From a virus: a stretch of DNA of 64,000 bases. Below are positions 1 through 51,569 of the stretch, in pieces (position 1 is the first letter of the stretch; every line of letters begins with the position of its first letter). The stretch spans positions 1 to 64,000 of the IMG/VR virus record IMGVR_UViG_3300029922_000055; one strand, 5' to 3'. The translations under genes and the position numbers were made by a program. The notes beneath the pieces were generated by a model that did no database searches, was not told where the DNA came from, and saw only the letters and a list, made by a program, of their open reading frames with translations.

Positions 1-169
1 TTTGTAGAATTCTTTCCATAACATTTTCTAAAAGGTCTATCTTAACGATTCTATTCTTTTCGAAATAATCCCATAGGAAATATTCTTTAAAATCTACTGC
101 AACTGGATATATAGGAATATCACAAACATCTCTAGTGATTCTAATGCAACATAAACCATAGTTAATCAT
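1..169 (-). CDS. Partial small protein, likely related to the micro-gene family
   Basis: Reading leftward, an ATG inside GATGATTAA overlaps the stop of the 170-residue upstream gene and opens a frame of 56 codons that runs off the window edge. The protein is rich in aromatic residues. Residues 26-39 (DFKEYFLWDYFEKN) match the core shared by the tiny genes at 6.8-8.5 kb, which have D-F-x-K-x-[FY]-[FLI] followed by D and N. It looks like an outlying member of that family. The function is unknown and the C-terminus is not visible. Confidence 0.6.
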   Translation of the reverse strand, partial: MINYGLCCIRITRDVCDIPIYPVAVDFKEYFLWDYFEKNRIVKIDLLENVMERILQ

Positions 170-5174: not shown

Positions 5175-5819
5175 CTAAAACGTCTTTAGAAAATTTTTAC
5201 ATTCTATTTTTGATTTCTGAGATTTGTTAATTTGTTTATCATAATAACCCATCAATTTTGTATATAAGGATTTCAAAAATTGCTGGCGAGTAACTTGAAA
5301 ATTTAAACAAACTCTATTAGAATTTCTTAATTGAATCTGGCCTTTTCCTAACGCGCCTATAGTTAAACAATCAAATTCTATGTTTTCTACAGGAGTAAAA
5401 ATAACATCACTTACAACAAATATATTTTTATCTATGGTATATTTAACCAGTAAAATAGAAAAATAATTATTATTAGTTTTATACAATTCTTTTAATTTTT
5501 CTACGGAAGTCAGATTAGGCATATTAAATTTCGTATCTAATCTGTGAGACTTTACATCTATAATATGAATAAAATTATCACAATCGACAACAGTGAAGTC
5601 TGCCATTGATTTCCTACTATTCTTAAATCTAGTCTCTTTTACTAAATCTGTAGGAAATATTTCTAAAAGATTGTTTTTAATAATTTCTTCAAAAAGTTTT
5701 CCAATAGAACGAACATCATTTTTAGACAACTTTTCCTTTATTTCATTGTTATCGTTTAGAATAGTTTTCGTATTTTCTTCTATCGTTTTTATAACTGATG
5801 CGTCATATAATTTAGACAT
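5175..5819 (-). CDS. Probable type II restriction endonuclease, 214 aa
   Basis: A PD-(D/E)xK-type site is visible: D74 in the ADFTV strand and D88-V-K90 in the HIIDVKSH strand, with E44/E45 as a possible helix acidic residue. FNMPNL and CLTIGALGKGQIQLRN further on resemble conserved blocks I recall from type II restriction enzymes. It sits directly behind a DNA methyltransferase gene in the same operon, the usual order for a restriction-modification pair. It would cut unmodified DNA, either host or competing phage. The recognition sequence cannot be read from the protein. The SD is weak (AGAAAG). A modification-linked nuclease of other purpose is the main alternative. Confidence 0.65.
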   Translation of the reverse strand: MSKLYDASVIKTIEENTKTILNDNNEIKEKLSKNDVRSIGKLFEEIIKNNLLEIFPTDLVKETRFKNSRKSMADFTVVDCDNFIHIIDVKSHRLDTKFNMPNLTSVEKLKELYKTNNNYFSILLVKYTIDKNIFVVSDVIFTPVENIEFDCLTIGALGKGQIQLRNSNRVCLNFQVTRQQFLKSLYTKLMGYYDKQINKSQKSKIECKNFLKTF

Positions 5820-5859: not shown

Positions 5860-6786
5860 TTAAGACTTCTGATTTCTCTCTAAAAATACACCATTGACGT
5901 AACCTTGTATATTTTTGTTTTCTTCGACTTTTTCTAAACGCTTTTCCGAAATCACACAATACTTTTCGTCAATCTCTATTCCAGAAAAATTTCTTCCCAA
6001 TTTTTTAGACACGACGGCAGTTGTTCCAGATCCCATAAAAACATCAAACACTACACCATTTTCCGGGCAGCTTGCCAAAATTAGTTTTGCTATTAGCTTT
6101 TCTGGCTTTTGGGTAGGATGAATTGTATTTTCCGGCATGGACCAATAAGGAACCGTAATATCATCCAAAAAATTCGAAGGAAACGTCATTCTAAATTTTC
6201 CAGATCCGTCTTCTACCCAATCTTTTGCAACGCCGTCTTGTTTATACGGAGCAATTACTTTCTTTTTGGTTTTAATAGAATCTACATCAAAATAATATTC
6301 GTCAGTCATTGTAGCAAATAGGATGTCTTCGGAACTATTTTTCCAATTTTTTGAAGCACCTCTTCCCTTTTCTCTTTGCCAGACAATCCTATTTCTTATT
6401 ATCGCATATTTTTCTAAAACTGTATATTGCTGAACAGAACATTTCCAATCACCACAAAGATATATTGTTGCTGTTGGTTTTAACAATCTTATAATTTTAC
6501 TAAACCAGGAATCCAAATATTCTAAGTATTTGTCGTTAGTTGTTTTTTTAAAATTTATTTCTCCAAAATTTTTAGATAAATTGTAGGGCGGATCTAATAT
6601 CAAAAGGTCTACGAAATTGTCTGGAAAATAATCTAACGCTTCAAATAAATCATTATTAAAAATTTTATTTAAAACATTTTCGACAGGTTCGTTGCTCGTT
6701 ATTTTATTCAATTTATTAGAATATGTTTCTAAATCTTTTTCATTAAAATCTATTGTTTTGTTTCTTTCTGATTTTTCTTTTATCAT
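5860..6786 (-). CDS. DNA methyltransferase, beta class (N6-adenine or N4-cytosine)
   Basis: The catalytic motif DPPY (residues 65-68) comes before the cofactor motif FMGSGTT (about 250-256). This order defines beta-class amino-methyltransferases. It transfers a methyl group from S-adenosylmethionine to adenine N6 or cytosine N4 within a target site. At 308 residues it is full length, and both motifs are intact. HPTQKPEKL before motif I and IQGYVNGVFLERN at the C-terminus are family-typical. A good SD (AAAAGGAAC) precedes the ATG, which overlaps the stop of the preceding minigene by four bases. The next gene is a probable nuclease, so this is likely the M part of an R-M pair that also protects phage DNA. 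Confidence 0.9.
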   Translation of the reverse strand: MIKEKSERNKTIDFNEKDLETYSNKLNKITSNEPVENVLNKIFNNDLFEALDYFPDNFVDLLILDPPYNLSKNFGEINFKKTTNDKYLEYLDSWFSKIIRLLKPTATIYLCGDWKCSVQQYTVLEKYAIIRNRIVWQREKGRGASKNWKNSSEDILFATMTDEYYFDVDSIKTKKKVIAPYKQDGVAKDWVEDGSGKFRMTFPSNFLDDITVPYWSMPENTIHPTQKPEKLIAKLILASCPENGVVFDVFMGSGTTAVVSKKLGRNFSGIEIDEKYCVISEKRLEKVEENKNIQGYVNGVFLERNQKS

Positions 6787-6890
6787 CTGTTCCTTTTATT
6801 AGTATTTAGTAATTTCATAAAATACTCCTGTATAGTTGCATGATGGATATCTTTTTTAATATTCCAAAAATATGATCTATTCCAATTCAT
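6783..6890 (-). CDS. Micro-gene array member 10, 35 aa, truncated
   Basis: A 35-codon frame (starts MNWNRSYFWNIKKDIHHATI) with four-base ATGA overlaps to both neighbours. It has the aromatic, W-rich start and a Q-E-Y-F segment like the core of the other array members, but lacks the C-terminal half. It may be a decayed or shortened copy. It couples translation of the array to the methyltransferase gene. Confidence 0.55.
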   Translation of the reverse strand: MNWNRSYFWNIKKDIHHATIQEYFMKLLNTNKRNR

Positions 6891-7063
6891 AAAAGTTTCC
6901 TGTAAAGTTCCCTAGAAGGTTTTCTTAAAATCATATTAAAATTACTATCAGCGAATATATAAAACCAATCATTAATAAATGCAGACTCTATATTTCGACA
7001 ACTATTTAATCCTGGATTCATATCAAAAAATTTATTTTCAATTTTATCAAACAATAGAATCAT
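6887..7063 (-). CDS. Micro-gene array member 9, 58 aa
   Basis: The frame opens at an ATG overlapping the upstream stop (ATGA) and closes with another ATGA overlap. The sequence MILLFDKIENKFFDMNPGLN continues to a polar middle and ends RELYRKLL, a short basic amphipathic helix like the ends of its neighbours. The D-F-K core is only weakly kept (IESAFINDWFYIFADSN). Function unknown. Confidence 0.65.
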   Translation of the reverse strand: MILLFDKIENKFFDMNPGLNSCRNIESAFINDWFYIFADSNFNMILRKPSRELYRKLL

Positions 7064-7245
7064 CTTAAACTTTCTTTAATAATCTTTCCAAACTCATATT
7101 CGTTTTTAATAGTTCTCATAATTCTGTTTAAGAAATCTCTATTCAAATAAAATTTCTTAAGGTCGGCACAAGAACTAGGATCGCTATTATAAAACGCATA
7201 ATGATTTTTTGCATCCCAATAAACAAAAGTTTCATACGTTTTCAT
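7060..7245 (-). CDS. Micro-gene array member 8, 61 aa
   Basis: The start at 7245 (MKTYETFVYWDAKN) sits in TGATGA, overlapping the upstream stop by one base. This is preferred to the frame's first possible start at 7260. The core ADLKKFYLNRDFLN (about residues 27-40) matches the family. The first seven residues resemble the T4 capsid-targeting sequence MKTYQEFIAE and those of member 3 (MKTFETFYRWD), but no cleavage-type glutamate follows. Function unknown. Confidence 0.75.
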   Translation of the reverse strand: MKTYETFVYWDAKNHYAFYNSDPSSCADLKKFYLNRDFLNRIMRTIKNEYEFGKIIKESLR

Positions 7246-7421
7246 CAAAAATTCAACCAACCTTTCGTCAAACTTTTCTTAAAATAGTAATCCAAAGATT
7301 TGAAATAAAAATTATAACCATCGTAATCTATAAAAACTTTTTCAAAATCTAACCAAACCCAACCAACATGCACATTTTCAAAAATATTCCAGCCATTTAT
7401 TCCTTTAGTATTGTATATCAT
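7245..7421 (-). CDS. Micro-gene array member 7, 58 aa
   Basis: An ATGA overlap joins it to the preceding gene and TGATG to the next. The core WLDFEKVFIDYDGYNFYF (residues 23-40) fits the family pattern D-F-x-K-x-F-I-x-x-D-x-x-N. The N-terminus contains a tryptophan (GWNIFENV) as in other members. It is aromatic-rich and has no cysteines or membrane segment. Function unknown. Confidence 0.7.
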   Translation of the reverse strand: MIYNTKGINGWNIFENVHVGWVWLDFEKVFIDYDGYNFYFKSLDYYFKKSLTKGWLNF

Positions 7422-7618
7422 TTGAAAAGTTCTTTATAAATATTTTCGAATTCAGTAAGACTCGCATGATGTCCTGCAACAAAAAAATCATTTGAAACAT
7501 CTTTGTTTATAAAATAATCCTTAAAATCTAATTTAGAAGTATAATTAAAAATATCCCGCCAATTGAAATGGATGATGCGATAAACATTAACTCTTTGAAT
7601 TTTCTTAAGTTTTCTCAT
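7418..7618 (-). CDS. Micro-gene array member 6, 66 aa
   Basis: Basic N-terminus MRKLKKIQRVNVYRIIHFNW, then the core LDFKDYFINKDVSNDFFV, then a C-terminal helix EFENIYKELFK. The core is one of the clearest family matches. Both ends overlap neighbours by four bases. It is probably a small soluble protein. The function is unknown. Confidence 0.75.
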   Translation of the reverse strand: MRKLKKIQRVNVYRIIHFNWRDIFNYTSKLDFKDYFINKDVSNDFFVAGHHASLTEFENIYKELFK

Positions 7619-7833
7619 AAACTCTTTCTAATATTTTCATAAACTCTTTTATAAACTCTTTTATAAAAACTCGGAACAAAATAATTTATAATAAAGTCAT
7701 TTCTATTGTCAGATTCCAGAAAATATTTCTCAAAGTCTACAGGGAAATCATAATCAAAACATCCAGCATGATAAGGAGGATTTCTGCAAAGTTTTTCTAA
7801 ATCTATCTTCATAAAATATTCAAAATTGTTCAT
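7615..7833 (-). CDS. Micro-gene array member 5, 72 aa
   Basis: Core VDFEKYFLESDNRNDFII, one of the best examples of the family signature. The C-terminus contains a short tandem duplication, KRVYKRVYENIRKSL, reflecting a repeated ATAAACTCTTTT-type segment in the DNA. It overlaps the preceding gene by 14 bases and the next by four. Function unknown. Confidence 0.75.
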   Translation of the reverse strand: MNNFEYFMKIDLEKLCRNPPYHAGCFDYDFPVDFEKYFLESDNRNDFIINYFVPSFYKRVYKRVYENIRKSL

Positions 7834-8017
7834 AAATTTTGTTCCAAGGCTTTCCGAAAACTTCTTTTATAAAATTATTTTGACAATCATTATCTAAAAA
7901 TGTTTCTAAAAAGTCTAATTCATCTTGGCCCATAATAAGAGCTTTTGTATCATATCCGTAAGTAAAAATGACATAAGAACATGCTAAATAAAATCCAGAA
8001 AATTTTTCATGAATCAT
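7820..8017 (-). CDS. Micro-gene array member 4, 65 aa
   Basis: Core ELDFLETFLDNDCQNNFIKE follows a tyrosine-rich N-terminus (FYLACSYVIFTYGYD). The C-terminus PWNKIYEQF again shows the W/F-x-x-[IF]-Y ending typical of the array. AAGGA seven bases before the ATG gives a good SD. It overlaps its neighbours by 11 and 14 bases. Confidence 0.75.
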   Translation of the reverse strand: MIHEKFSGFYLACSYVIFTYGYDTKALIMGQDELDFLETFLDNDCQNNFIKEVFGKPWNKIYEQF

Positions 8018-8207
8018 GGAAATCCTTTAACATTTCTTCAAAAAATCCTACATAACTTTTTCTATTAAAACCTACATAACTTTTTATATTAAAATTTTTA
8101 ACATCGTATTCTAAAAAGATTTTCTTAAAGTCTAGTAAAAGTTTTATATTCCAAGTTTCGAAACCATTTTCCAAATCCCATCTATAAAATGTTTCAAAGG
8201 TTTTCAT
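8007..8207 (-). CDS. Micro-gene array member 3, 66 aa
   Basis: Starts MKTFETFYRWDLENG, nearly the same opening as member 8. The core LLDFKKIFLEYDVKNFNI is a strong family match. A tandem duplication KSYVGFNRKSYVGFF follows and is visible in the DNA as repeated CATAACTTTTT-type segments. GGAAAG precedes the ATG. It overlaps the gene before it by 14 bases. Confidence 0.78.
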   Translation of the reverse strand: MKTFETFYRWDLENGFETWNIKLLLDFKKIFLEYDVKNFNIKSYVGFNRKSYVGFFEEMLKDFHDS

Positions 8208-8364
8208 AAAAAGCTTTCCAGAAAGTAATCGTATAATTTTTCTTCAAAAATAAATTTTTCGTTTCATATTTTAAGAAAGATTTTTTAAAATCTGCACCAG
8301 AACCAAATCCTAAATCATATCCAAATTTTTTATCACAAATTATAATATTAGAATATTTTATCAT
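8194..8364 (-). CDS. Micro-gene array member 2, 56 aa
   Basis: The frame runs from an ATG at 8364 to a TGA inside the next gene's first codons. Core ADFKKSFLKYETKNLFLK is clear, and the C-terminus ITFWKAFYENL is almost the same as that of member 1 (TNWKAFYDKIF). The start lies 14 bases inside the preceding gene's 3' end. Confidence 0.72.
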   Translation of the reverse strand: MIKYSNIIICDKKFGYDLGFGSGADFKKSFLKYETKNLFLKKNYTITFWKAFYENL

Positions 8365-8515
8365 AAAAAGCTTTCCAATTTGTCGGTGGTCTTTCTGTCA
8401 TTATACAATTTGATAAATGATAGTCTAAAAACCATTTTTCAAAACAGGGAATTCTTCCAGAGCACCAGTTTAAGGTTTTAGGATTTATTAAAAAGAAATC
8501 TCGAAAATCATGCAC
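8348..8515 (-). CDS. Micro-gene array member 1, 55 aa, GTG start
   Basis: A GTG at 8515, overlapping the ligase stop by eight bases, opens a 55-codon frame. The protein has a DFRDFF segment right at the N-terminus, a second match CFEKWFLDYHLSN in the middle and the ending NWKAFYDKIF shared with member 2. The GTG start is inferred because no ATG gives this frame. It links the array to ligase translation. Confidence 0.62.
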   Translation of the reverse strand: MHDFRDFFLINPKTLNWCSGRIPCFEKWFLDYHLSNCIMTERPPTNWKAFYDKIF

Positions 8516-10328
8516 AGATATACTCCAGAAACTCCTCTACGGAAAGAATCTTAATTCCTAATTCTCTCGCCTTGGTAGCTTTCGAAGAAGTAGTAGAAGG
8601 ATCCTTAACAACGAGCACTTGAGTATTCTTAGAAACCGAACTTGCTTCTGACCAACCAGCGGCCTCAACTTTTACTAAATCGTCTCCATGAAATCTTACT
8701 CCAGTGATTACATATTTACCTGCGTTTACTGACATCTTTTTCTCCTGTTTAATTTGTTTTAAATTTACGAACTCGAAGAACAATTCTTTTTTGTCAACCA
8801 TTTCGGAAATAACGTTTGAATTGAAATTTGAAAGATTGTTCAATTTGTTTATTTCTGTAGCATCTTCGAAAAACTCTATCAAATCGAACCCAGAATCTAC
8901 AATCTTTTGAGCAAGCCTTTCACCACAACTATTCAGAAAAGTATTGTAGACGATCTTAACATCAACTGTTCCGGAAATATTTTCTAAAAATTTGTTAATC
9001 TTTTCTATATGACTTTCTCCTAGTCCATAAACGTTTCCGGAAAACTTTTTATTATACTTTATCAAATCATATACAGTATAAATCTCTTCGCTTTCAAAAA
9101 ACTTTTCTATAATCTTTTCGGAAAGTCCTTCCGGATAAAAGTATGAAGAAAATGTATAAAGCCTTGACGAGTTTAAATTCTCACAGCTAGGATTTACACA
9201 AAATATATGCTCTCCATTTTGTTCTCCGTTAGAATTACAAACAGGGCATTTAGGAACAATTTCGGAAAAACTTTGCTTAAATATTGTATTAAGATTTTTC
9301 GAAATTGTTCTCTCTACATGAGGAATAATTTCATTGGCTCTAGAAATTTCTACCACATGGTCTGCAAAAACTGGCCAGCAATCCTTTTCTAAAGCCTTTG
9401 CATAGCTTCCTAGACTTGCCTTAGAGATAGTGGCTCCAGCTAATTGAACCGGCTCTAGAATGGCTACAGGAGTTAATCTTTGGTCTTTTCCTATGCTCCA
9501 TTTGACTGACAGCAGTTTTGTATTTACTACTTCATCATCAAATTTGAAAGCGAGATATTCAGGGCCAGTTTTGAAAACTACTCCGTCAGCATCATATGTA
9601 TAATCGTCTTTATATTTTTTCTTGAATGCTTTCACATCAGTAAAAATTAAATTATCTACAGGAATTTGTTTTTCTACATTGAACCAAGTTTCCCAAGGAT
9701 ATTTTTCGGTTATGTCTTCCTTAGTATCTATATTTGTAAATGTATATGAAATAACATCTACCCATTTGAAAATATTCTCCCAATCATCTTGCCTAGAAAT
9801 TGCACCAGCTACAGCATTCCTAGAAGATTTAGAAATATCGAATCCATTGTCTATTGTGTAATTTACTTTTTTAATCGCCGCCTCACTTCGAACAGCAAAG
9901 TTTTCTTTTACGGGAACAGTTTTCGGAAACTTTTTCTCAAATTTCGCGGTCCTGTCTATTCCTATATTATCTTTTCCTCTGGTCGCAACTTTATATTGAT
10001 GCCCATTTTTATATGTGGCTAAAATAGAATTTCCATCAATTTTTGTAGATTGTGTAGTATTGGCATTAAGAAACTTTTTTAAAACGTTTATATCTTTTGT
10101 CTTAATTTCAATAGAACCAACTGGAATAGGATGTTGAGTTTTTTCCTTCTCATCAATTCCCTTCAAAACGTAACCATGGCCGACTTCAGTTAAAATACCA
10201 TGATTAGGATCTAGCTTCCGGACTTGTTCTAACTTTTCGTCAAATTCTTTATCAGTAGCTGACGAAGTTCCCGTATCATAATATTCTTGAGATAGTTGTT
10301 TAATTTCTTCTACTAGTTTTTGTAACAT
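8508..10328 (-). CDS. ligA: NAD-dependent DNA ligase
   Basis: This is a 606-residue LigA-type ligase, slightly shorter than the typical bacterial enzyme of about 670. It joins DNA nicks using NAD+. The adenylation site K96-I-D-G is present, followed by the OB-fold region, a four-cysteine zinc finger (CPVC...CVNPSC, around residues 378-400), helix-hairpin-helix repeats, and a C-terminal BRCT domain (about 530-606). The N-terminal Ia domain (YYDTGTSSATDKEFDEKL) is present, so the enzyme looks complete and active. It is the first gene after a strong early promoter. It presumably replaces the ATP-dependent ligase used by T4 for replication and repair. Confidence 0.95.
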   Translation of the reverse strand: MLQKLVEEIKQLSQEYYDTGTSSATDKEFDEKLEQVRKLDPNHGILTEVGHGYVLKGIDEKEKTQHPIPVGSIEIKTKDINVLKKFLNANTTQSTKIDGNSILATYKNGHQYKVATRGKDNIGIDRTAKFEKKFPKTVPVKENFAVRSEAAIKKVNYTIDNGFDISKSSRNAVAGAISRQDDWENIFKWVDVISYTFTNIDTKEDITEKYPWETWFNVEKQIPVDNLIFTDVKAFKKKYKDDYTYDADGVVFKTGPEYLAFKFDDEVVNTKLLSVKWSIGKDQRLTPVAILEPVQLAGATISKASLGSYAKALEKDCWPVFADHVVEISRANEIIPHVERTISKNLNTIFKQSFSEIVPKCPVCNSNGEQNGEHIFCVNPSCENLNSSRLYTFSSYFYPEGLSEKIIEKFFESEEIYTVYDLIKYNKKFSGNVYGLGESHIEKINKFLENISGTVDVKIVYNTFLNSCGERLAQKIVDSGFDLIEFFEDATEINKLNNLSNFNSNVISEMVDKKELFFEFVNLKQIKQEKKMSVNAGKYVITGVRFHGDDLVKVEAAGWSEASSVSKNTQVLVVKDPSTTSSKATKARELGIKILSVEEFLEYICA

Positions 10329-10359: not shown

Positions 10360-10388
10360 AAGATAACAAATTTAATCTAGCTTGTCAA
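10360..10388 (-). promoter_or_regulatory. Sigma70-type early promoter of the ligase operon
   Basis: TTGACA (10388-10383), a 17-base spacer and TATCTT (10365-10360) on the minus strand, just before the ligase gene. It lies partly in the 3' end of the upstream protease-like gene. The whole run ligase, micro-genes, methyltransferase and nuclease could be read from it, since no other promoter is evident before 5.1 kb. Confidence 0.87.
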
Positions 10389-12490: not shown

Positions 12491-13705
12491 TCAATGTCCT
12501 GTCAGTATATAGTTGTCTGGCAAATTGCCTGATTTTTTAGACGCTTCTGCTTCAACTGCTTGTGTTGTCCAAGTCTCACATCGAATCGGCATCCGTAGAG
12601 CACAAGCAACTCCTTGTGCTATTTGTAAGGCTAATTTTTCTATGTTCTTAGCGGCGTTAATGTCTCTGTCTAGGATAGCATGGCAATGAGGGCATTCCCA
12701 AGTTCTATCTTCTAATGTTAAATCATCATTGATACAACCACATTCATTACAAGTTTTAGAAGAAGGGAACCAACGATCAATTGCTTGAATTTGTTTTTGA
12801 TTCCACACTGCTTTGTATTTTAAGAAATTGATGAACTGACTCCAACCAGCATCTGAAATTGCTCTAGCTAGTTTTCTATTTTTCACCATTCCTTTGACAT
12901 TTAAAGATTCTATTCCTATAAAGTCAAACCTCTTGATTAGGTCTAAAGAAAGATTGTGATGAAACCAACTTCTTTGATTAGCTACTTTTTCATGGACTCT
13001 AGCAACCTTCACTCTTGTTTTCTTGTAACGGCTAGAACCCACCACTTTTCGACTCGGGTTCTTTTGAGTCTTTCTTAGCTTCGCTTGACTCTTGCGAAGC
13101 CATCTTGGATTCTCAATTTTTTCTCCATTAGATAAAATCAAGAAATCTTTCAATCCTAAATCTAATCCTACGATTTTATTAGTTTGTTCAAATCTAGGAC
13201 TCGCTTCTTCTTCTACGAGGATAGATGCAAAATACTTTCCAGAAGGAGTTTTCGAAATTGTTACTGACACGAATTTAGAATTTTTCTTAGGCAAACGATC
13301 TATTCGAATTTCTATGTCTCCTATCTTTTCTAACCAAATTGAATTTTGTTCTAATCTGAATTTTTGATTTGGGAGTCTGAAAGATTGGTGGTTGGATTTC
13401 TTTTTGAATTGTGGTCTACCAATTTTCTTTTTTCTAGATTTTGAAAAATATTGAGTTTTGAATTTTTCAAAATCTCTTACTTTTTGTTGTAGTGCTCCCG
13501 CATTGACTTCCGTCATCCATAAGAATTCTAATTTTAGTTCAGGTGGTGATTTGTAAATTGGCTTAGTGTTAATTTCTTTATCGTATGAATTAAAAATATC
13601 TACCATTTGATTCCAAACAAATCTTACACAACCAAAAGTCTTAGATAAAATTATCTTCTGTTCTTCAGTTGGATAGATTCTATATTTGTAAGCTCGTTTG
13701 GTCAT
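12491..13705 (-). CDS. tnpB: TnpB RNA-guided nuclease (IS200/IS605 family accessory protein)
   Basis: 404 residues starting MTKRAYKYRIYPTEEQ, the classic TnpB opening. All three RuvC acidic positions are present: D182 (GLDLGLKD), E266 (IGIES) and D348 in LDRDINAAKN. The zinc finger is intact (CNEC at 319-322, CPHC at 338-341). TnpB cuts DNA using a guide RNA whose scaffold normally comes from the 3' end of its own gene. The C-terminal 45 residues, from QIAQGVACAL onward, may overlap that RNA. There is no tnpA gene nearby, no SD before the ATG, and only 16 bases lie between its stop and the next gene. It stands between two small membrane-protein genes. Confidence 0.93.
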   Translation of the reverse strand: MTKRAYKYRIYPTEEQKIILSKTFGCVRFVWNQMVDIFNSYDKEINTKPIYKSPPELKLEFLWMTEVNAGALQQKVRDFEKFKTQYFSKSRKKKIGRPQFKKKSNHQSFRLPNQKFRLEQNSIWLEKIGDIEIRIDRLPKKNSKFVSVTISKTPSGKYFASILVEEEASPRFEQTNKIVGLDLGLKDFLILSNGEKIENPRWLRKSQAKLRKTQKNPSRKVVGSSRYKKTRVKVARVHEKVANQRSWFHHNLSLDLIKRFDFIGIESLNVKGMVKNRKLARAISDAGWSQFINFLKYKAVWNQKQIQAIDRWFPSSKTCNECGCINDDLTLEDRTWECPHCHAILDRDINAAKNIEKLALQIAQGVACALRMPIRCETWTTQAVEAEASKKSGNLPDNYILTGH

Positions 13706-13709
13706 ATAA

Positions 13710-14258
13710 CTATTTAATAAAAATATATGCAACCAAAAAAGCGAGCCCAACACCAAAACCTATACCAGAATCTCTCCAAAAATGTTCTTCGGAAACTCTT
13801 ACATTTTTCAAAGAATCTACATTAGTTTTCATTTCGGAAATAGTCTCATCAGCATTTTTAACATTATCTAAGCAAATTCCTAAAAGCGCGGAATCTCTTT
13901 CCATCAAGTATTTTGCTTCTATAGCTTGCTTGGCTTGGTCTTGAGAAATATCTAAAAACTTTGTAGTGTCTTTTGAATAATAAACACTATCAAACAACGT
14001 GACTTTTTTTGCAGAATCTTTTCCGGAAAATACTGAGTCAAGATTTCCAGAAACTTTTTCGAAATGATTGACCACGACTTTCTGCTTGACTATTACAGTA
14101 TCATGAATATAACTCTGCCTATCTTTGTATAATGTATCTACTCTTGCAACAACATTTTGAATAATTTTGGATTCTTTTGGTTGAAAAAATTGCTTCCCTC
14201 CAAAAAACCCTATTAGCAAAGCAACAACAATTAGCACCCACCACATTTTTGTATTCAT
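13710..14258 (-). CDS. Membrane protein with periplasmic helix, spanin-like
   Basis: 182 residues: a strong N-terminal membrane segment (WWVLIVVALLIGFFGGKQFF), a long polar helical region with many D, K and V residues, and a second hydrophobic end (GIGFGVGLAFLVAYIFIK). An anchored N-terminus with an extended periplasmic helix is the plan of inner-membrane spanins, which help disrupt the outer membrane at lysis. The second terminal segment is unusual for that family, so the call is tentative. It overlaps regA by four bases and ends five bases before tnpB. Confidence 0.6.
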   Translation of the reverse strand: MNTKMWWVLIVVALLIGFFGGKQFFQPKESKIIQNVVARVDTLYKDRQSYIHDTVIVKQKVVVNHFEKVSGNLDSVFSGKDSAKKVTLFDSVYYSKDTTKFLDISQDQAKQAIEAKYLMERDSALLGICLDNVKNADETISEMKTNVDSLKNVRVSEEHFWRDSGIGFGVGLAFLVAYIFIK

Positions 14259-43406: not shown

Positions 43407-43991
43407 TTAGTCTTCCGGGGCATTATAATCTTCATCAAAATGAGCAGTTCCGTAAGTGGTTTCGAAATGGTCGGCTTTGAATGTTATATCATATTCTATT
43501 TTTTCGGAATTATTATAGGAATAGGTTGGCGTAGAGCTTTTTAAGAAATAACAATTGAAGAAATTCCTTTTATAAATGTTTGTTCCGTTTGGGCGAAAAA
43601 CAGAAACTTGAATTTGGTCTATAACTGTATTAGCATATGTATTATAATATCCAGAAGATTTTATATTTTTTCTAGTCAACTTATCTATAAGACTTTGAAT
43701 AGTTCCTTGGTCATCTTCTTCAAATTTTATAGTAAATGCGAAACCATGATGCTCTAACACTGGAAACGTTTTTACAAAAGATCCTATTCTATATTCTTCA
43801 TCTTTGAATTCATAATTAGGAACTTCTATAGATGTTGCATAATAATGACTGTTGTTAAAATTCCAAGCATTATTATCTATCAAATTAGAAAGACTAGAAT
43901 TCTCAAAATAAATATGGTAGTTGTAAGTCCTTTGTATCGATTTTGTCTGATAAAAGGACCTAGTAGTTTGTGTTACAGGTCCATTATCCAT
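43407..43991 (-). CDS. Second tail tube-like protein (gp19 family), 194 aa
   Basis: Opens SIQRTYNYHIYFENSSLSNL and continues with strands ATSIEVPNYEFKDEEYRI, VIDQIQVSVFRPNGTNIYKR and FKADHFETTY, the gp19-type beta-barrel order, followed by an acidic tail. It is adjacent to and parallel with the main tube gene and a likely paralog. It could form the tube's terminal ring or a distinct tube segment. Confidence 0.65.
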   Translation of the reverse strand: MDNGPVTQTTRSFYQTKSIQRTYNYHIYFENSSLSNLIDNNAWNFNNSHYYATSIEVPNYEFKDEEYRIGSFVKTFPVLEHHGFAFTIKFEEDDQGTIQSLIDKLTRKNIKSSGYYNTYANTVIDQIQVSVFRPNGTNIYKRNFFNCYFLKSSTPTYSYNNSEKIEYDITFKADHFETTYGTAHFDEDYNAPED

Positions 43992-44002
43992 TGTCTATTA
44001 CC

Positions 44003-44653
44003 TTAGTTTGAAGATTCAGGTGTTATCACAGGATTAGAAATATTTCCATTACCAATCTGTGGATCGGTTGGAGAATATACCCAGAAATCATATTGGAAAG
44101 TTGCATTAAACTTTACAGAATCTCCAGCCTGATTGTAATCGATATTTACTTCGGCAACATTCTGCAACCACGCATTGTAAAGATAATACTTGTTTGGTTC
44201 TTGACTAGGATCGGTTCCGGCTCCACCATTTCTATAAGCAGTGATAACAATATGGTCACAAATACCAGTATCGGCAATTGAACCAGCGGCATTGTTTCCA
44301 CGCTTCCTGCTATAATTAGAATGTCCAGCAGTTACATCAAATATCTTTTGCTGCCAAGAATAAAGAAATGTTGCCACACCCTGACTTTCAGTTTCTTCAA
44401 AAGTAATATCCGAAGTATTTGAGAAAGTTGGTTTGCCAGGAAAGAATTGTTTCATGGCTCCATAACTAGATTCTATTGCTTCGTTACCACGTTGAGGAAT
44501 GGTGAAAGAACGTGCTCTTAGAGTAACATCATCAGAAGTCCAACCAGGAATAAGACTCCCAGCATTTATAAAACTAACTTCATAATTATAGTTTCTCTGA
44601 ATATCGGCAAAGTTCCTGATATTCCTTCCTTCTATATATAGTCCACCCGGCAT
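44003..44653 (-). CDS. gp19: Tail tube protein, gp19-like
   Basis: 216 residues, longer than T4 gp19 (163). It has RNYNYEVSFINAGSLIPGWT at the start, then RARSFTIPQRGNEAIESSYG, a conserved F-P-G-K-P segment, and the ending EVNIDYNQAGDSVKFNATFQ typical of tube proteins. Its place right after the sheath gene (three-base gap) is the standard T4 order 18-19. It forms the inner tube through which DNA passes. Confidence 0.85.
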   Translation of the reverse strand: MPGGLYIEGRNIRNFADIQRNYNYEVSFINAGSLIPGWTSDDVTLRARSFTIPQRGNEAIESSYGAMKQFFPGKPTFSNTSDITFEETESQGVATFLYSWQQKIFDVTAGHSNYSRKRGNNAAGSIADTGICDHIVITAYRNGGAGTDPSQEPNKYYLYNAWLQNVAEVNIDYNQAGDSVKFNATFQYDFWVYSPTDPQIGNGNISNPVITPESSN

Positions 44654-46488: not shown

Positions 46489-48114
46489 TTAGTTATAACC
46501 ATTTCCGAAATATATATCATTGTTTTGAGAGTTTTGGAAATTTTGGGGGGTATCTTGGAAATCGTTTGAAAAAGCATTTCCGAAAAAGTTTGAATGAATA
46601 TCTTCCGAACTTAAGAATGTTGGAACTTCTTCATCTGAACCTTTATTAGATTTTCCGGAATCTTTTGCATTAGTTGTTGCATCATAAAATCCAGAGATTA
46701 GATAATACAACCCAATCCACATGGAACAAACAGTATCGTCATTTTCGTTTTGTCCAATTGCTTGCCAAACTCCAGGATTTTTCTCTTCAAATCTACTCAA
46801 TTCATAGAGAGTCTTCATATCATTTATTTGAAGCCAACCATTTTCTATATACTTTTTCATTAGCAAAACACCTGCTAGTTTTGTTTTTTTTGTAGAACGA
46901 ATACCTAGGCCATTCTTATCGAAATTTATAAGTTTGTCACAATCGTATTCGTAAAAAATCTTATCACAAACCAATTCTCCTATATCATTACTTTCAACCA
47001 TCATCTCTGCTTTATTATAATATTCTGAAATACCCACACATATACCAGCAAACGTTTCCGGGTCGGTTTCATTATTGCGAAAAACTGCAACTTGGTCTAT
47101 ATCTTTTTCGGAATTTATTTTTAATACTTGAACAACAGAATAATCAGAACCAGTGCCTCTACTTGGATCGACCCCTAATACATATTCACAGCCATCTATA
47201 GGTAATTCATATATCAGCATTGCTCCATTGTATTTATTTTCTATTGGTGTTCTTGTATCTATTCTTTCTAAAATTCCAGGAGTTATTAAGGTATTTGAAC
47301 TTCCTTGGAATTGGCCCTCATGCTCCTGAAGGAACGCTTGTGTTGTCATATCTTTTTTTGTATCTTCTGCCCATTTTTCATCTCTATCTGGATGGTCTCT
47401 CCAAGTTATTTTAATAGGATAAAAATTGTTTTCTCCTTTAACTGCCTTTGAATAAATTTCATAAAAATGATTCAAGCCTTTTGGCGTAGATACCATAATA
47501 AGCTTTGATTTTTTTCCAGATGACATAATAGAATAAACAGAATTCCAAAATTGCTCCCAGATATGCGGTGGCACGAAACTTGCTTCGTCAAGAAAAACTA
47601 ATCCTGAAGTTTTTCCACGGACAGAATCTGACGAACTAGAAGCAGCTAAAATAGTCATTCCGTTTTCAAACTGAACAGAATTCTTATTCCAACCGCCATT
47701 AACAACCCCTTTTTGAAGCCATAGAGGAAATTTCTGAATCGCTATTTTAATTTTTTCCAAAGTATCTTTGGCTGTTGCTTCTTTGTTTGCTAATATAATA
47801 ATATTGTCATCTTTTTCAAATAGAGAATAATGAGTAAGAAAAATACTAGTCATCATCCCCTTCCCGACCTGCCTAGCTGCCAGAAGACATATGTGTTTTT
47901 TTCCATTTGGGGGATCGGACATAGCTTTTAATACTTTTTTTTGATATCCATACAATTTTACTAATTGCCTACCACCATCAATAGTTTGAATATAAAAATA
48001 ATGTTCCGCAAAATATATTATATCATTTTTACATTTAACATATTCGTCTATTTGTTCTTTCGTTATTACTACCTTTTCTCCAGCGGCGCGAAGGGATGGG
48101 TTTCCTTGATACAT
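46489..48114 (-). CDS. gp17: Terminase large subunit, gp17-like
   Basis: 541 residues, slightly shorter than T4 gp17 (610). ATPase half: Walker A AARQVGKG (79-86), where the usual final S/T is glycine, Walker B LVFLDEAS, and STPKGLNHFYEIY. Nuclease half: GVDPSRGTGSDYSVVQV with the first catalytic aspartate, and MMVESNDIGELVCDKI. It drives DNA into the head and cuts it. The start overlaps the stop of the GIY-YIG gene (TAATG). The ATG is followed by a plausible N-terminus (MYQGNPSLRAAGEKV). Confidence 0.93.
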   Translation of the reverse strand: MYQGNPSLRAAGEKVVITKEQIDEYVKCKNDIIYFAEHYFYIQTIDGGRQLVKLYGYQKKVLKAMSDPPNGKKHICLLAARQVGKGMMTSIFLTHYSLFEKDDNIIILANKEATAKDTLEKIKIAIQKFPLWLQKGVVNGGWNKNSVQFENGMTILAASSSSDSVRGKTSGLVFLDEASFVPPHIWEQFWNSVYSIMSSGKKSKLIMVSTPKGLNHFYEIYSKAVKGENNFYPIKITWRDHPDRDEKWAEDTKKDMTTQAFLQEHEGQFQGSSNTLITPGILERIDTRTPIENKYNGAMLIYELPIDGCEYVLGVDPSRGTGSDYSVVQVLKINSEKDIDQVAVFRNNETDPETFAGICVGISEYYNKAEMMVESNDIGELVCDKIFYEYDCDKLINFDKNGLGIRSTKKTKLAGVLLMKKYIENGWLQINDMKTLYELSRFEEKNPGVWQAIGQNENDDTVCSMWIGLYYLISGFYDATTNAKDSGKSNKGSDEEVPTFLSSEDIHSNFFGNAFSNDFQDTPQNFQNSQNNDIYFGNGYN

Positions 48115-48923: not shown

Positions 48924-49274
48924 ATGAATAAAAATCCAGAAGAATTCCAAAAAGAACTTAACATGCTTTTGATAGAGCCTTTTCTAGAAAATTTAGAAAA
49001 AATTCCAGCAGTCGATATAGAAAGGGATTTCAAACTTTTTCTAATAAGCATAAATTACAAAAACAAGATTCAAATGGATATAAGAATTTACGAAAAACAT
49101 ATAGATTTCTTTTGGTTTGATAAAGATTGTAAACTGTTTGATAATGATAGCTTAAAAATTTATAAGCACAATTTCAAATTATGTTTAAGAGAAGCATTAG
49201 CATTTACAGCAGATAATATATTGGAATTGAAAAAGGAGGCTATTAAGAAAAGAAGAAATTTAAGAAGACACTAA
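48924..49274 (+). CDS. Hypothetical protein, 116 aa, inverted-pair copy A
   Basis: Not recognised. It is the rightward partner of a tail-to-tail paralog pair. Both proteins are 116 residues and align end to end: NPEEFQKELNMLLIEPFLEN against STNFQKELNVMLVDSFFEDF, and both end in K-R-R-x-L-R-R-H. The C-terminus is very basic, which suggests nucleic-acid or membrane contact. It is read from a strong early promoter with almost no leader, whereas its twin is read from the other side. Confidence 0.78.
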   Translation: MNKNPEEFQKELNMLLIEPFLENLEKIPAVDIERDFKLFLISINYKNKIQMDIRIYEKHIDFFWFDKDCKLFDNDSLKIYKHNFKLCLREALAFTADNILELKKEAIKKRRNLRRH

Positions 49275-49275
49275 A

Positions 49276-49626
49276 TCAATGTCTCCTCAAAATTCTCCTA
49301 CGTTTAACCAAAGTTTTCTTCATGCTCTTAAAAACTGCCGTCCAATTTTCTAAAACACTTTTAAAATTTTCTATATCCCAATCGTAGGCAAAATAGAAAT
49401 CATCCTCATCAAAAACTTGGTGCCATTCATTAAAATGATTCACATGAAAATATTTCGAAAACACTTGGACATGCATTCTCACACGGCCTTTATAAATTAC
49501 TCCTATATGTAGTTGTTCTAAATCTGGCAAAACTTCTACGCCTCTTATTTTCTTAAAGTCTTCAAAAAAGCTATCTACAAGCATTACGTTCAATTCTTTC
49601 TGAAAGTTCGTAGAATTTTTCTTCAT
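49276..49626 (-). CDS. Hypothetical protein, 116 aa, inverted-pair copy B
   Basis: Leftward twin of the preceding gene, separated by a single base between the two stops. It has the same length and the same conserved ends (FQKELN near residue 8, RRRILRRH at the end), while the middle has diverged (HVQVFSKYFHVNHFNEWHQV). It lies at the end of the cassette of MSFK-type genes and might be co-transcribed with them. Function unknown. Confidence 0.78.
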   Translation of the reverse strand: MKKNSTNFQKELNVMLVDSFFEDFKKIRGVEVLPDLEQLHIGVIYKGRVRMHVQVFSKYFHVNHFNEWHQVFDEDDFYFAYDWDIENFKSVLENWTAVFKSMKKTLVKRRRILRRH

Positions 49627-49663: not shown

Positions 49664-49981
49664 TTAATGAGAAAGTTTCATCAAATGTTTTCTAGTATCT
49701 TTTTCTCCAACAGGTGCGTCATATACGTTATCACTATTGAAAAACTTGAATTTTCTTTTGCCATTTTCTTCTAGTTCTGTAGTTTCTAACCATTCTCCAG
49801 AGTTAATTTCTTCTTCGTGGGTTTCGTTCCATTGTTTCATCTCTGTATAGGAATGATTTAGAGAAAATAGTTTTAGCAATTCATGGGTCTTTTTATTTCG
49901 CATTCCATAACCAATTTTAGAACGACCTGGAAATTTATATTCAGATTCTTCCATTAGTTTTCTGTAAAGTTTGAAGCTCAT
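49664..49981 (-). CDS. MSFK-cassette protein 4, 105 aa
   Basis: Starts MSFKLYRKLMEESEYKF. The opening matches the other three cassette members and ends in L-M-E-E, compatible with T4-type prohead protease cleavage (L-x-E). The rest is charged, with KTHELLKLFSLNHSYTEMKQ and a lysine-histidine tail. It overlaps the preceding gene by four bases. The function is unknown. By analogy it may be packaged in the capsid, but no head genes are visible here to test this. Confidence 0.7.
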   Translation of the reverse strand: MSFKLYRKLMEESEYKFPGRSKIGYGMRNKKTHELLKLFSLNHSYTEMKQWNETHEEEINSGEWLETTELEENGKRKFKFFNSDNVYDAPVGEKDTRKHLMKLSH

Positions 49982-50289
49982 GGAAATACCTTATTTAATT
50001 TTTCTTCTATATCGTTTCTGGAAGCTTCTAAAATGTTTTCTCCATAAATTTCGTCAAACCATTCTCTTGAAAGAACATTTTCCCGATTTTCAAGAACTAA
50101 CATTAGAGAATCTTTATCACCTTCCTCAAGCAAAAGCAACCACTTATCATACCATTTTTGCTGAGATTCTTTAATAACATTTTTAGAAATCTTTCCGAAA
50201 TAGCCTTTAGAATAGTATTTCTCAAAGACTGATTCAAAGATTTCTTGTTTGTCTGTTTTAGCTTTGTAATAGAAGTGTTTAAATGACAT
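49978..50289 (-). CDS. MSFK-cassette protein 3, 103 aa
   Basis: Starts MSFKHFYYKAKTDKQ, sharing the M-S-F-K-x-F-Y opening but lacking the cleavage-type glutamate. The body is helical and acidic (KWLLLLEEGDKDSLMLVLEN). It overlaps the last gene of the cassette by four bases. Only eight bases separate it from the kinase-like gene before it. Function unknown. Confidence 0.7.
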   Translation of the reverse strand: MSFKHFYYKAKTDKQEIFESVFEKYYSKGYFGKISKNVIKESQQKWYDKWLLLLEEGDKDSLMLVLENRENVLSREWFDEIYGENILEASRNDIEEKLNKVFP

Positions 50290-50297
50290 GAAATTAT

Positions 50298-50930
50298 TTA
50301 GTGTTTCTTTTTCGAATAGTGTGTATTAGCTACTGTATTATTAAACCCCAAATCAAGCAACCTAGCTTTTCCATTAAAATCTCCCCAAGAAGCCAGTCTA
50401 CAAATATCTCCTGGAGGCATATCAAAGTTTATCATTAAATCTACTACTTGATAAACTATAGAGTCCTCGTCATTCAGCATTTCTTTAGTTTTTTCGGATA
50501 TATTTTCCTTTTTTATTTTTCCGCGATAATCTAAATCAGCTTCGGAAATAGCTTTTGTAAAATCTTGCCAAGAAACTTTCGAAAGAGCTTGAAATTTGCT
50601 TGGAGTCATCTTGGTTCCTTTTTTCATAATCAACCAAGAACAATCATCTTCTTCATCTTTATCAATCAATTCAGAAATAATATCAGGATACATTTTTTGC
50701 ATTCCCCAATCGCCTTCTGTATTGTTCTGGTCATATCCCTTTTCGTTTTTAGCAAGTTTTAATACATTTCCGTCACCCATGTCATATACAATTCTAGAAG
50801 ATCCGGTTCCAATTTTCGGAAAGTATCTAGCAACGTATTGAGCCTTTTTCGAAAAACTTTGAAAAGTATCTATAGAATCTTTATTAAACTTTTCTTCATC
50901 TTCTTTTAAGTAGAATTTTTTGAAAGACAT
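50298..50930 (-). CDS. Kinase-like fold protein A with capsid-targeting-like N-terminus, 210 aa
   Basis: After MSFKKFYLKE comes a glycine-rich loop IGTGSSR (residues 40-46), a strand with lysine NVLKLAKNEKGYDQN (K58), a hinge-like SWLIMKKGTKM, and near the C-terminus D193-L-G195, in place of the kinase D-F-G. I recall this G-x-G-S-S-R...V-L-K-x-A-x-N-x-K-G-x-x-Q-N pattern from uncharacterised phage proteins. No H-R-D loop is seen, so it may be a pseudokinase or an atypical kinase. It is paralogous to the next gene upstream (three-base gap). Confidence 0.7.
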   Translation of the reverse strand: MSFKKFYLKEDEEKFNKDSIDTFQSFSKKAQYVARYFPKIGTGSSRIVYDMGDGNVLKLAKNEKGYDQNNTEGDWGMQKMYPDIISELIDKDEEDDCSWLIMKKGTKMTPSKFQALSKVSWQDFTKAISEADLDYRGKIKKENISEKTKEMLNDEDSIVYQVVDLMINFDMPPGDICRLASWGDFNGKARLLDLGFNNTVANTHYSKKKH

Positions 50931-50933
50931 AAT

Positions 50934-51569
50934 TTATTTCCTATGTTTCTTATAAAAAGTGTTAAAAAAATCCTTCTGCAAACCCGGATCGAGTATAACT
51001 AATCTATTTCCAATTTTTCCCCATGAAGACGTTTTAATTACATCACCAACAAGCAATCCTAAAGAGAATGTTAAATCCTGAACCAAATCTAAGAAGTGAG
51101 AAGTTTTTAATAGTTCTTTGGTTTCTTCTGAGACATCTTTCTTTTCTTTGTAATTAACTAGTTTCATTTCTTTCATAGCTTTTTGAAAAGTTTTGAAAGG
51201 TATTTTAGAAATCTTTTCGAAAGTTTCCTCATCAACTGGCTTGGCTTTTTCCATAACTATCCAATATATTTTATCACCTTGACATTTCTTTTTTAATGCC
51301 GGAACCAAATCTCCGAAAAGTTTATGGATTTGATCTGACTGTTCCATCAAATTTTGGCCTAATCCTTTTTCGTTCCAGGCCAATTTCAATACAGAATTTT
51401 TAGAAAGGTCGAATACTAATCTGGAACTACCTTTGCCAATTTGATTTAGATTTTCTTTACAAAATTTAATTTTTTCTTCAAATGTTTCTAAAGAATCTAA
51501 ATGCACGAAATTGAATTTACTTTCGGCAAGTTTTTCAGATTCTATTAAATAAAAATTTCTAAAAGCCAT
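50934..51569 (-). CDS. Kinase-like fold protein B with capsid-targeting-like N-terminus, 211 aa
   Basis: First gene of the cassette. It starts MAFRNFYLIESEKLAESK, where Y-L-I-E fits a T4-type prohead protease site. Glycine loop IGKGSSR (44-50), SVLKLAWNEKGLGQN with K62, hinge-like IYWIVMEKAKPV, and C-terminal D194-P-G196 align with protein A over the whole length. Some positions of the DFG-like motif differ (DPG against DLG). AAGGA serves as SD, and a late-type box lies 30 bases upstream, supporting synthesis during head assembly. Confidence 0.7.
   Translation of the reverse strand: MAFRNFYLIESEKLAESKFNFVHLDSLETFEEKIKFCKENLNQIGKGSSRLVFDLSKNSVLKLAWNEKGLGQNLMEQSDQIHKLFGDLVPALKKKCQGDKIYWIVMEKAKPVDEETFEKISKIPFKTFQKAMKEMKLVNYKEKKDVSEETKELLKTSHFLDLVQDLTFSLGLLVGDVIKTSSWGKIGNRLVILDPGLQKDFFNTFYKKHRK

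Follow-up and report, generated by a model that had tools for sequence, protein, structure and literature searches.

A tandem array of diverged small genes with overlapping ends in an uncultured T4-like phage

Introduction

What could a virus gain from a run of very small genes that follow one another without a real gap, each beginning inside or at the end of the one before? This question is raised by a locus between a DNA ligase gene (ligA) and a DNA methyltransferase gene in a stretch of 64,000 nt of viral DNA (hereafter the window), which comprises bases 1–64,000 of the 67,680-base virus record IMGVR_UViG_3300029922_000055 (G000). An earlier reading, made from the letters of the window alone (the sequence-only reading), had described ten paralogous genes at this site, had ascribed them to repeated duplication with fast divergence and had proposed an arms-race role or a family of host-takeover proteins. 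Here we analyze the layout of the array, the relatedness of its members, their change relative to a related genome and their possible function.

Results

The virus and its relatives

Judged from its gene content, the source of the window is an uncultured T4-like myovirus, with Pfam profile matches to the large terminase (PF03237/PF17289) and to a T4 baseplate protein (PF12322). The best matches of the terminase (35–39%) belong to cyanophages, pelagiphage HTVC008M and others, and no close cultured phage was found in the phage collection searched. Three other IMG/VR contigs are related to the window phage. G001 (3300050021_000053) is 92–98% identical along most of its length (overall ~93%) and terminates inside the third array gene, T3; G002 (3300029985_000079) is 100% identical across the array region, and its end coincides to the base with that of the window, within a probable further family member at the left edge; G003 (3300021077_000008), detected via its 99% identical terminase, is a fragment that spans parts of the genome other than the array and holds no array match. 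That G000, G001 and G002 break off inside family members may be due to strain variation at these places.

The relatives also differ elsewhere. The terminase of the window (46489–48114) shares only 60% identity with its counterpart in G001 and 99% with the one in G003, while the sheath (43407–44653) shares 99% with the G001 sheath, which points to module swapping among these phages. A TnpB-type (IS605 OrfB) gene at 12511–13723 is cleanly missing from G001 and thus looks like a recent insertion in the window phage; it gave no useful pointer to the host. Gene content near the array varies as well: in G001 an additional frame of ~200 codons separates ligA from the gene at 10377.

Layout of the array and its junctions

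We observed that ten overlapping minus-strand frames, T1–T10, of 35–72 codons fill the interval between ligA and the methyltransferase gene from 8515 to 6783 (Table 1), in agreement with the sequence-only reading. In chain order, ligA and T1 overlap by 8 nt, the array genes by 17, 14, 11, 14, 4, 4, 1, 4 and 4 nt, and T10 and the methyltransferase gene by 4 nt. The previously given range of 1 to 14 nt thus holds for eight of the nine junctions within the array, the exception being T1/T2. We doubt that gene calling would miss four of the frames for their shortness, as common gene callers usually accept frames from 90 nt upwards and all ten are longer.

Table 1. Coordinates of the array genes, their neighbours and the frame at the left edge of the window (LOO, leave-one-out profile score; fractions give the shuffles that score as high)
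Feature	Position	Strand	Remarks
Candidate HincII-like restriction endonuclease	5175..5819	-	PF09226, E=6e-4, 19.6 bits, under the curated cut-off of 23.7
N6/N4 DNA methyltransferase	5860..6786	-	downstream neighbour; PF01555, E=1e-42; PADLOC type II MTase
T10, 35 aa	6783..6890	-	part of the chain; family membership unsupported, 626/2000; atypical codon usage; overlaps methyltransferase start by 4 nt
T9, 58 aa	6887..7063	-	part of the chain; family membership unsupported, 904/2000
T8, 61 aa	7060..7245	-	T3-like start MKTYETF; LOO 20.5 bits, 0/2000
T7, 58 aa	7245..7421	-	LOO 19.1 bits, 0/2000; DNA 75% identical to T3 across 53 bp
T6, 66 aa	7418..7618	-	LOO 19.7 bits, 0/2000
T5, 72 aa	7615..7833	-	short internal repeat YKRVYKRVY; LOO 22.1 bits, 0/2000
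T4, 65 aa	7820..8017	-	LOO 23.8 bits, 0/2000
T3, 66 aa	8007..8207	-	closest to consensus; short internal repeat KSYVGF; LOO 37.9 bits, 0/2000
T2, 56 aa	8194..8364	-	start codon within Tyr-Asp codons of T1; ending WKAFYENL; LOO 22.7 bits, 0/2000
T1, 55 aa	8348..8515	-	GTG start within ligA end; ending WKAFYDKIF; LOO 15.2 bits, 1/2000
ligA, NAD-dependent DNA ligase with OB and BRCT domains	8508..10328	-	upstream neighbour; PF03120, PF01653, PF00533
Left-edge frame	2..169	-	cut by contig end; starts 8 nt inside gene 162–674; 10.8 bits, above all 2000 shuffles

Each downstream gene starts before the preceding one is over or at its very end. At the T1/T2 and T2/T3 junctions the sequence TGG AAA GCT TTT TAT GA specifies the upstream ending W-K-A-F-Y-[DE] and at the same time holds GGAAAG and the next ATG; the T4/T5 junction (TGG AAC AAA ATT TAT GA) is arranged similarly. 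The aromatic ending is thus in part dual coding, as the codons of the upstream C-terminus also contain a Shine-Dalgarno-like site and the start codon for the gene that follows. Dual coding is not its sole cause, since T6 and T9 keep the Tyr in a similar ending that contains no start codon. Pairing with the anti-Shine-Dalgarno sequence is better at array starts than at random ATGs (p=0.003), and other starts of the phage show no significant difference from the array starts; a Shine-Dalgarno-like sequence precedes most array starts, with almost none at T7 and T9. Taken together, the junctions suggest that the copies are probably translationally coupled via termination and reinitiation.

The same phage carries further small overlapping genes of uncharacterised role at 664–2878 and, at 48924–49274 (+) and 49276–49626 (-), two more small genes that resemble each other and point in opposite directions. 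With regard to the restriction-modification genes downstream, GTYRAC is rarer in the window than expected from dinucleotides (13 versus 36.5 sites), as are several other palindromes, and in the whole window GTAC occurs at 0.10 and GATC at 0.34 of expectation, GATC being avoided in G001 and G003 too. The avoidance of GTAC and GATC suggests host restriction pressure. The adjoining methyltransferase and the possible HincII-like endonuclease give no direct clue to the role of the array.

Relatedness of the copies

To evaluate paralogy, each member was scored with a hidden Markov model (HMM) profile built from the others (leave-one-out) and compared with 2000 composition-preserving shuffles per member. 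T1–T8 scored 15–38 bits, for each of them at most one of the 2000 shuffles matched the observed score, and in a leave-one-out search of 1236 six-frame ORFs the E-values ranged from 4e-10 to 2e-3. T9 and T10 scored no better against the family profile than their shuffles did (Table 1). By these profile comparisons, T1–T8 are one family beyond chance and form a tandem paralog array of homologous neighbours that all run in one direction; for T9 and T10 membership is not supported. Of the ten paralogs described earlier eight therefore stand, and for these eight duplication with divergence is borne out.

The left-edge frame carries VDFKEYFLWDYFEKN and, as it outscored all of its shuffles, is a probable family member, as the sequence-only reading had supposed. 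It starts inside the preceding gene just as T1 starts inside ligA, so that a second array may begin there, with this frame perhaps as its first gene.

The copies share the core D-F-[KE]-K-x-F-[LI]-x-x-D-x-x-N; a variable stretch comes next, and most copies have a C-terminal [FIV]-Y-[DEK]. Pairwise identities are mostly 10–35%, the family alignment contains no conserved stretch of 7–10 columns, and the net charge on the common core ranges from -5.4 to +4.5 among T1–T8. Neighbouring copies did not resemble each other significantly more than expected for a random order (p=0.11), and recent stepwise tandem duplication is thus unsupported. Codon usage like that of non-coding sequence had been named as an observation that would speak against genes. 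The codon usage of T2–T8 stays inside the range spanned by genes of this phage; that of T1, of T10 and of the left-edge frame is atypical. Overall, the tandem arrangement and the divergence of what appears to be a translated family are well supported.

Change relative to a related genome

We compared rates of change with the one related genome, G001, that holds array genes (T1–T3), and used the genes from 10377 to 48114 as the rest-of-genome reference. T1–T3 occur in G001 in the same order and with the same overlaps as in the window, so that the lack of homologs in related phages, which would have told against the array, is not what we found. The T1 orthologs share 61% amino-acid identity with a dN/dS of 0.34, indicating net purifying selection; the T2 orthologs are 93% identical (dN/dS 1.07), and the T3 orthologs are 92% identical across the 52 codons that G001 holds. 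For T2 and T3 together we counted 9 nonsynonymous changes and 1 synonymous change, compared to 1240:1586 in the rest of the genome (Fisher p=0.007), and for T1 34 nonsynonymous and 15 synonymous changes (p=0.0004 against the same reference). On these small numbers, the counts support the view that the array proteins change faster than most other proteins of the phage, in line with the fast divergence claimed before. For T2 and T3, with ten changes only, relaxed constraint fits the pattern as well as positive selection does. Along the region, identity to G001 is ~100% in phoH, 57–98% in ligA, 69% in T1 and 96–98% in T2–T3, and these sharp shifts show mosaic recombination.

Searches for relatives and structure

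None of the ten array members gave a significant match in Pfam, PHROGs or NCBIfam, including AcrID1 and other known anti-CRISPR or anti-defence families, and no relative of the family was found among PDB sequences. A tblastn search with T3 against 50,697 phage records returned no relative, and single-protein scans of IMG/VR with T3 and of GTDB genomes with T2 returned the same phage lineage only, or nothing. Two scans of IMG/VR with degenerate DNA motifs yielded 21 and 53 stretches, of which only G001 and G002 proved to be true relatives after HMM scoring; these scans demand a fairly strict motif, which strongly diverged arrays may escape. Loci with relatives of the adjoining methyltransferase (L040, L041 and L042) hold no such array. 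A Bbp19-like protein (L074, ~22 bits), whose stretch DFKEVFLNSDAGN matches the array core across 36 residues, was rejected as a relative, as it had been found by motif selection and the reverse profile test was negative: the Phage_Bbp19 profile (PF25181) matches nothing in G000 even at E<=10, and no array member matches it.

AlphaFold models of T3 and T2 were of low confidence (mean pLDDT 53 and 49); both are helical at the core and at the C-terminus and differ in their N-terminal halves, so that no fold could be assigned with confidence. As far as these searches reach, the protein family appears to be new, and a comparable overlapping array was not reported in the literature searched. The earlier statement that no system with such a layout has been described can accordingly be kept for this exact family; the general kind, in which small viral accessory genes occur as clusters of diverged copies, is known already and has precedents (PMC11065993, PMC9391042, PMC12373910).

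Discussion

From the observed order, overlaps and rate of change of the array we infer a function with caution. The reading that we tentatively prefer, at a little under an even chance, is that of a lineage-specific family of small proteins (55–72 aa), duplicated in tandem and translated in a coupled manner, whose copies would inhibit variants of a host target, with defence proteins as the most likely target. Tandem duplication would have expanded one family into a run of at least eight diverged copies, and ribosomes would terminate and then re-initiate along the run, so that all copies are made together. One scaffold, composed of the core D-F-x-K-x-F-L-x-x-D-x-x-N and a C-terminal helix, would show differing surfaces by which the copies bind and block the target variants, while further copies would come from recombination at short homologies and would diverge afterwards. 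A host-facing, defence-blocking role is suggested by the precedents of T4 TifA, the T4 Ip proteins and archaeal AcrID1, and the fast change of the array proteins is expected of proteins aimed at a moving host target and is compatible with an anti-defence or arms-race role. An unlikely possibility is a self-expanding counter-defence array: as the C-terminal codons of a unit would include the start of the following unit together with its ribosome-binding site, a duplicated unit would be coupled into expression at once, and the phage would maintain a set of variants of one inhibitor against a variable host target.

The array could also encode host-takeover proteins that act on ordinary machinery (transcription, metabolism, nucleases), kept in several copies for dosage or for different partners and engaged in no arms race. 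The small overlapping genes at 664–2878 would make a non-structural small-gene region normal in this phage, and the net purifying selection on T1 fits such a role; dosage alone, however, fails to explain identities of mostly 10–35% or the raised amino-acid change, and we regard this account as rather improbable. Unlikely, too, is a non-adaptive expansion in which recombination copies a tolerant, non-essential stretch and the copies drift under relaxed constraint. The near-neutral ratio of T2 and T3 agrees with it, T9 and T10 resemble decayed or unrelated remnants, the short internal repeats of T3 and T5 are signs of slippage, and the contig of G001 stops inside T3. None of the eight copies, however, has lost its open frame or start, most of the core motif is preserved in all of them, most retain Shine-Dalgarno-like sites, and together with the dN/dS of T1 this points to some selection on translation and sequence.

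We consider it very improbable that the genes encode internal head proteins like T4 IpI–III, which would be packaged via an N-terminal capsid-targeting sequence and injected. The starts of T3, T8, T5 and T1 (MKTFETF, MKTYETF, MNNFEYF and MHDFRDF) do resemble MKTYQEF of T4 and the phage's own N-termini MSFKKFYLKE and MAFRNFYLIE. But when the ten N-termini were tested for internal-protein features, the acidic position held D or N where E is expected, no member had in this region the [LI]-x-E site seen in the other candidate internal proteins of the phage, and the array sits with the ligase and methyltransferase genes, away from the head-gene region. These other candidates lie at 49664–51569 and in L006 (record positions 64281–65039), where several proteins start like T4 capsid-targeting sequences (the two starts just given and MSKLSFEKFLLKES); the genes at 50298–50930 and 50934–51569 are tandem paralogs, both of PHROG 4301, with a stretch GSSRxVxD...VLKLAxNEKG that looks kinase-like. 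That the frames arose by chance in AT-rich DNA is hardly credible: the atypical codon usage of T1 and T10 would agree with it, but ten chained starts, the Shine-Dalgarno-like sites, the constraint on T1 and, most strongly, the mutual homology speak against it.

For now, the array represents an orphan family with an unusual layout. If its copies are specificity variants of one inhibitor, as in our preferred reading, the array would record the versions of the host target that the phage has met and would be a source of small inhibitors that can be tested one by one. Letting C-terminal codons double as the ribosome-binding site of the following gene would be a simple route to add coupled gene copies.

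Among known systems, AcrID1 of the rudiviruses SIRV1, SIRV2 and SIRV3 forms clusters of diverged, duplicated copies for which functional diversification is possible (PMC11065993), and it resembles the array in that a single virus genome carries a close-set group of many divergent members of a small protein family. In contrast to the array, whose genes overlap in one run, the early genes of these archaeal viruses are located at genome ends and are mostly single with their own promoter sequence, and AcrID1 is an anti-CRISPR (PMC11065993); library searches found no sequence relation between the two. In T4, tifA, a gene for an anti-toxin of 85 aa, was experimentally amplified in tandem via microhomologies of 6–10 bp (PMC9391042). 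The dmd-tifA case shares with the array a T4-like phage and a small gene amplified in tandem, there via short homologies and in counter-defence, whereas its repeats are recent and laboratory-selected and the array copies are strongly diverged (PMC9391042). Finally, T-even phages possess a set of specific internal proteins, of which Ip1, Ip2 and Ip3 of T4 each block a different GmrSD (PMC12373910). The Ip proteins bear a capsid-targeting signal and are injected (PMC12373910), whereas the array proteins have no cleavage site; nevertheless, both are small, variable accessory proteins of T4-like phages, and each Ip protein is specific for one variant of a defence family.
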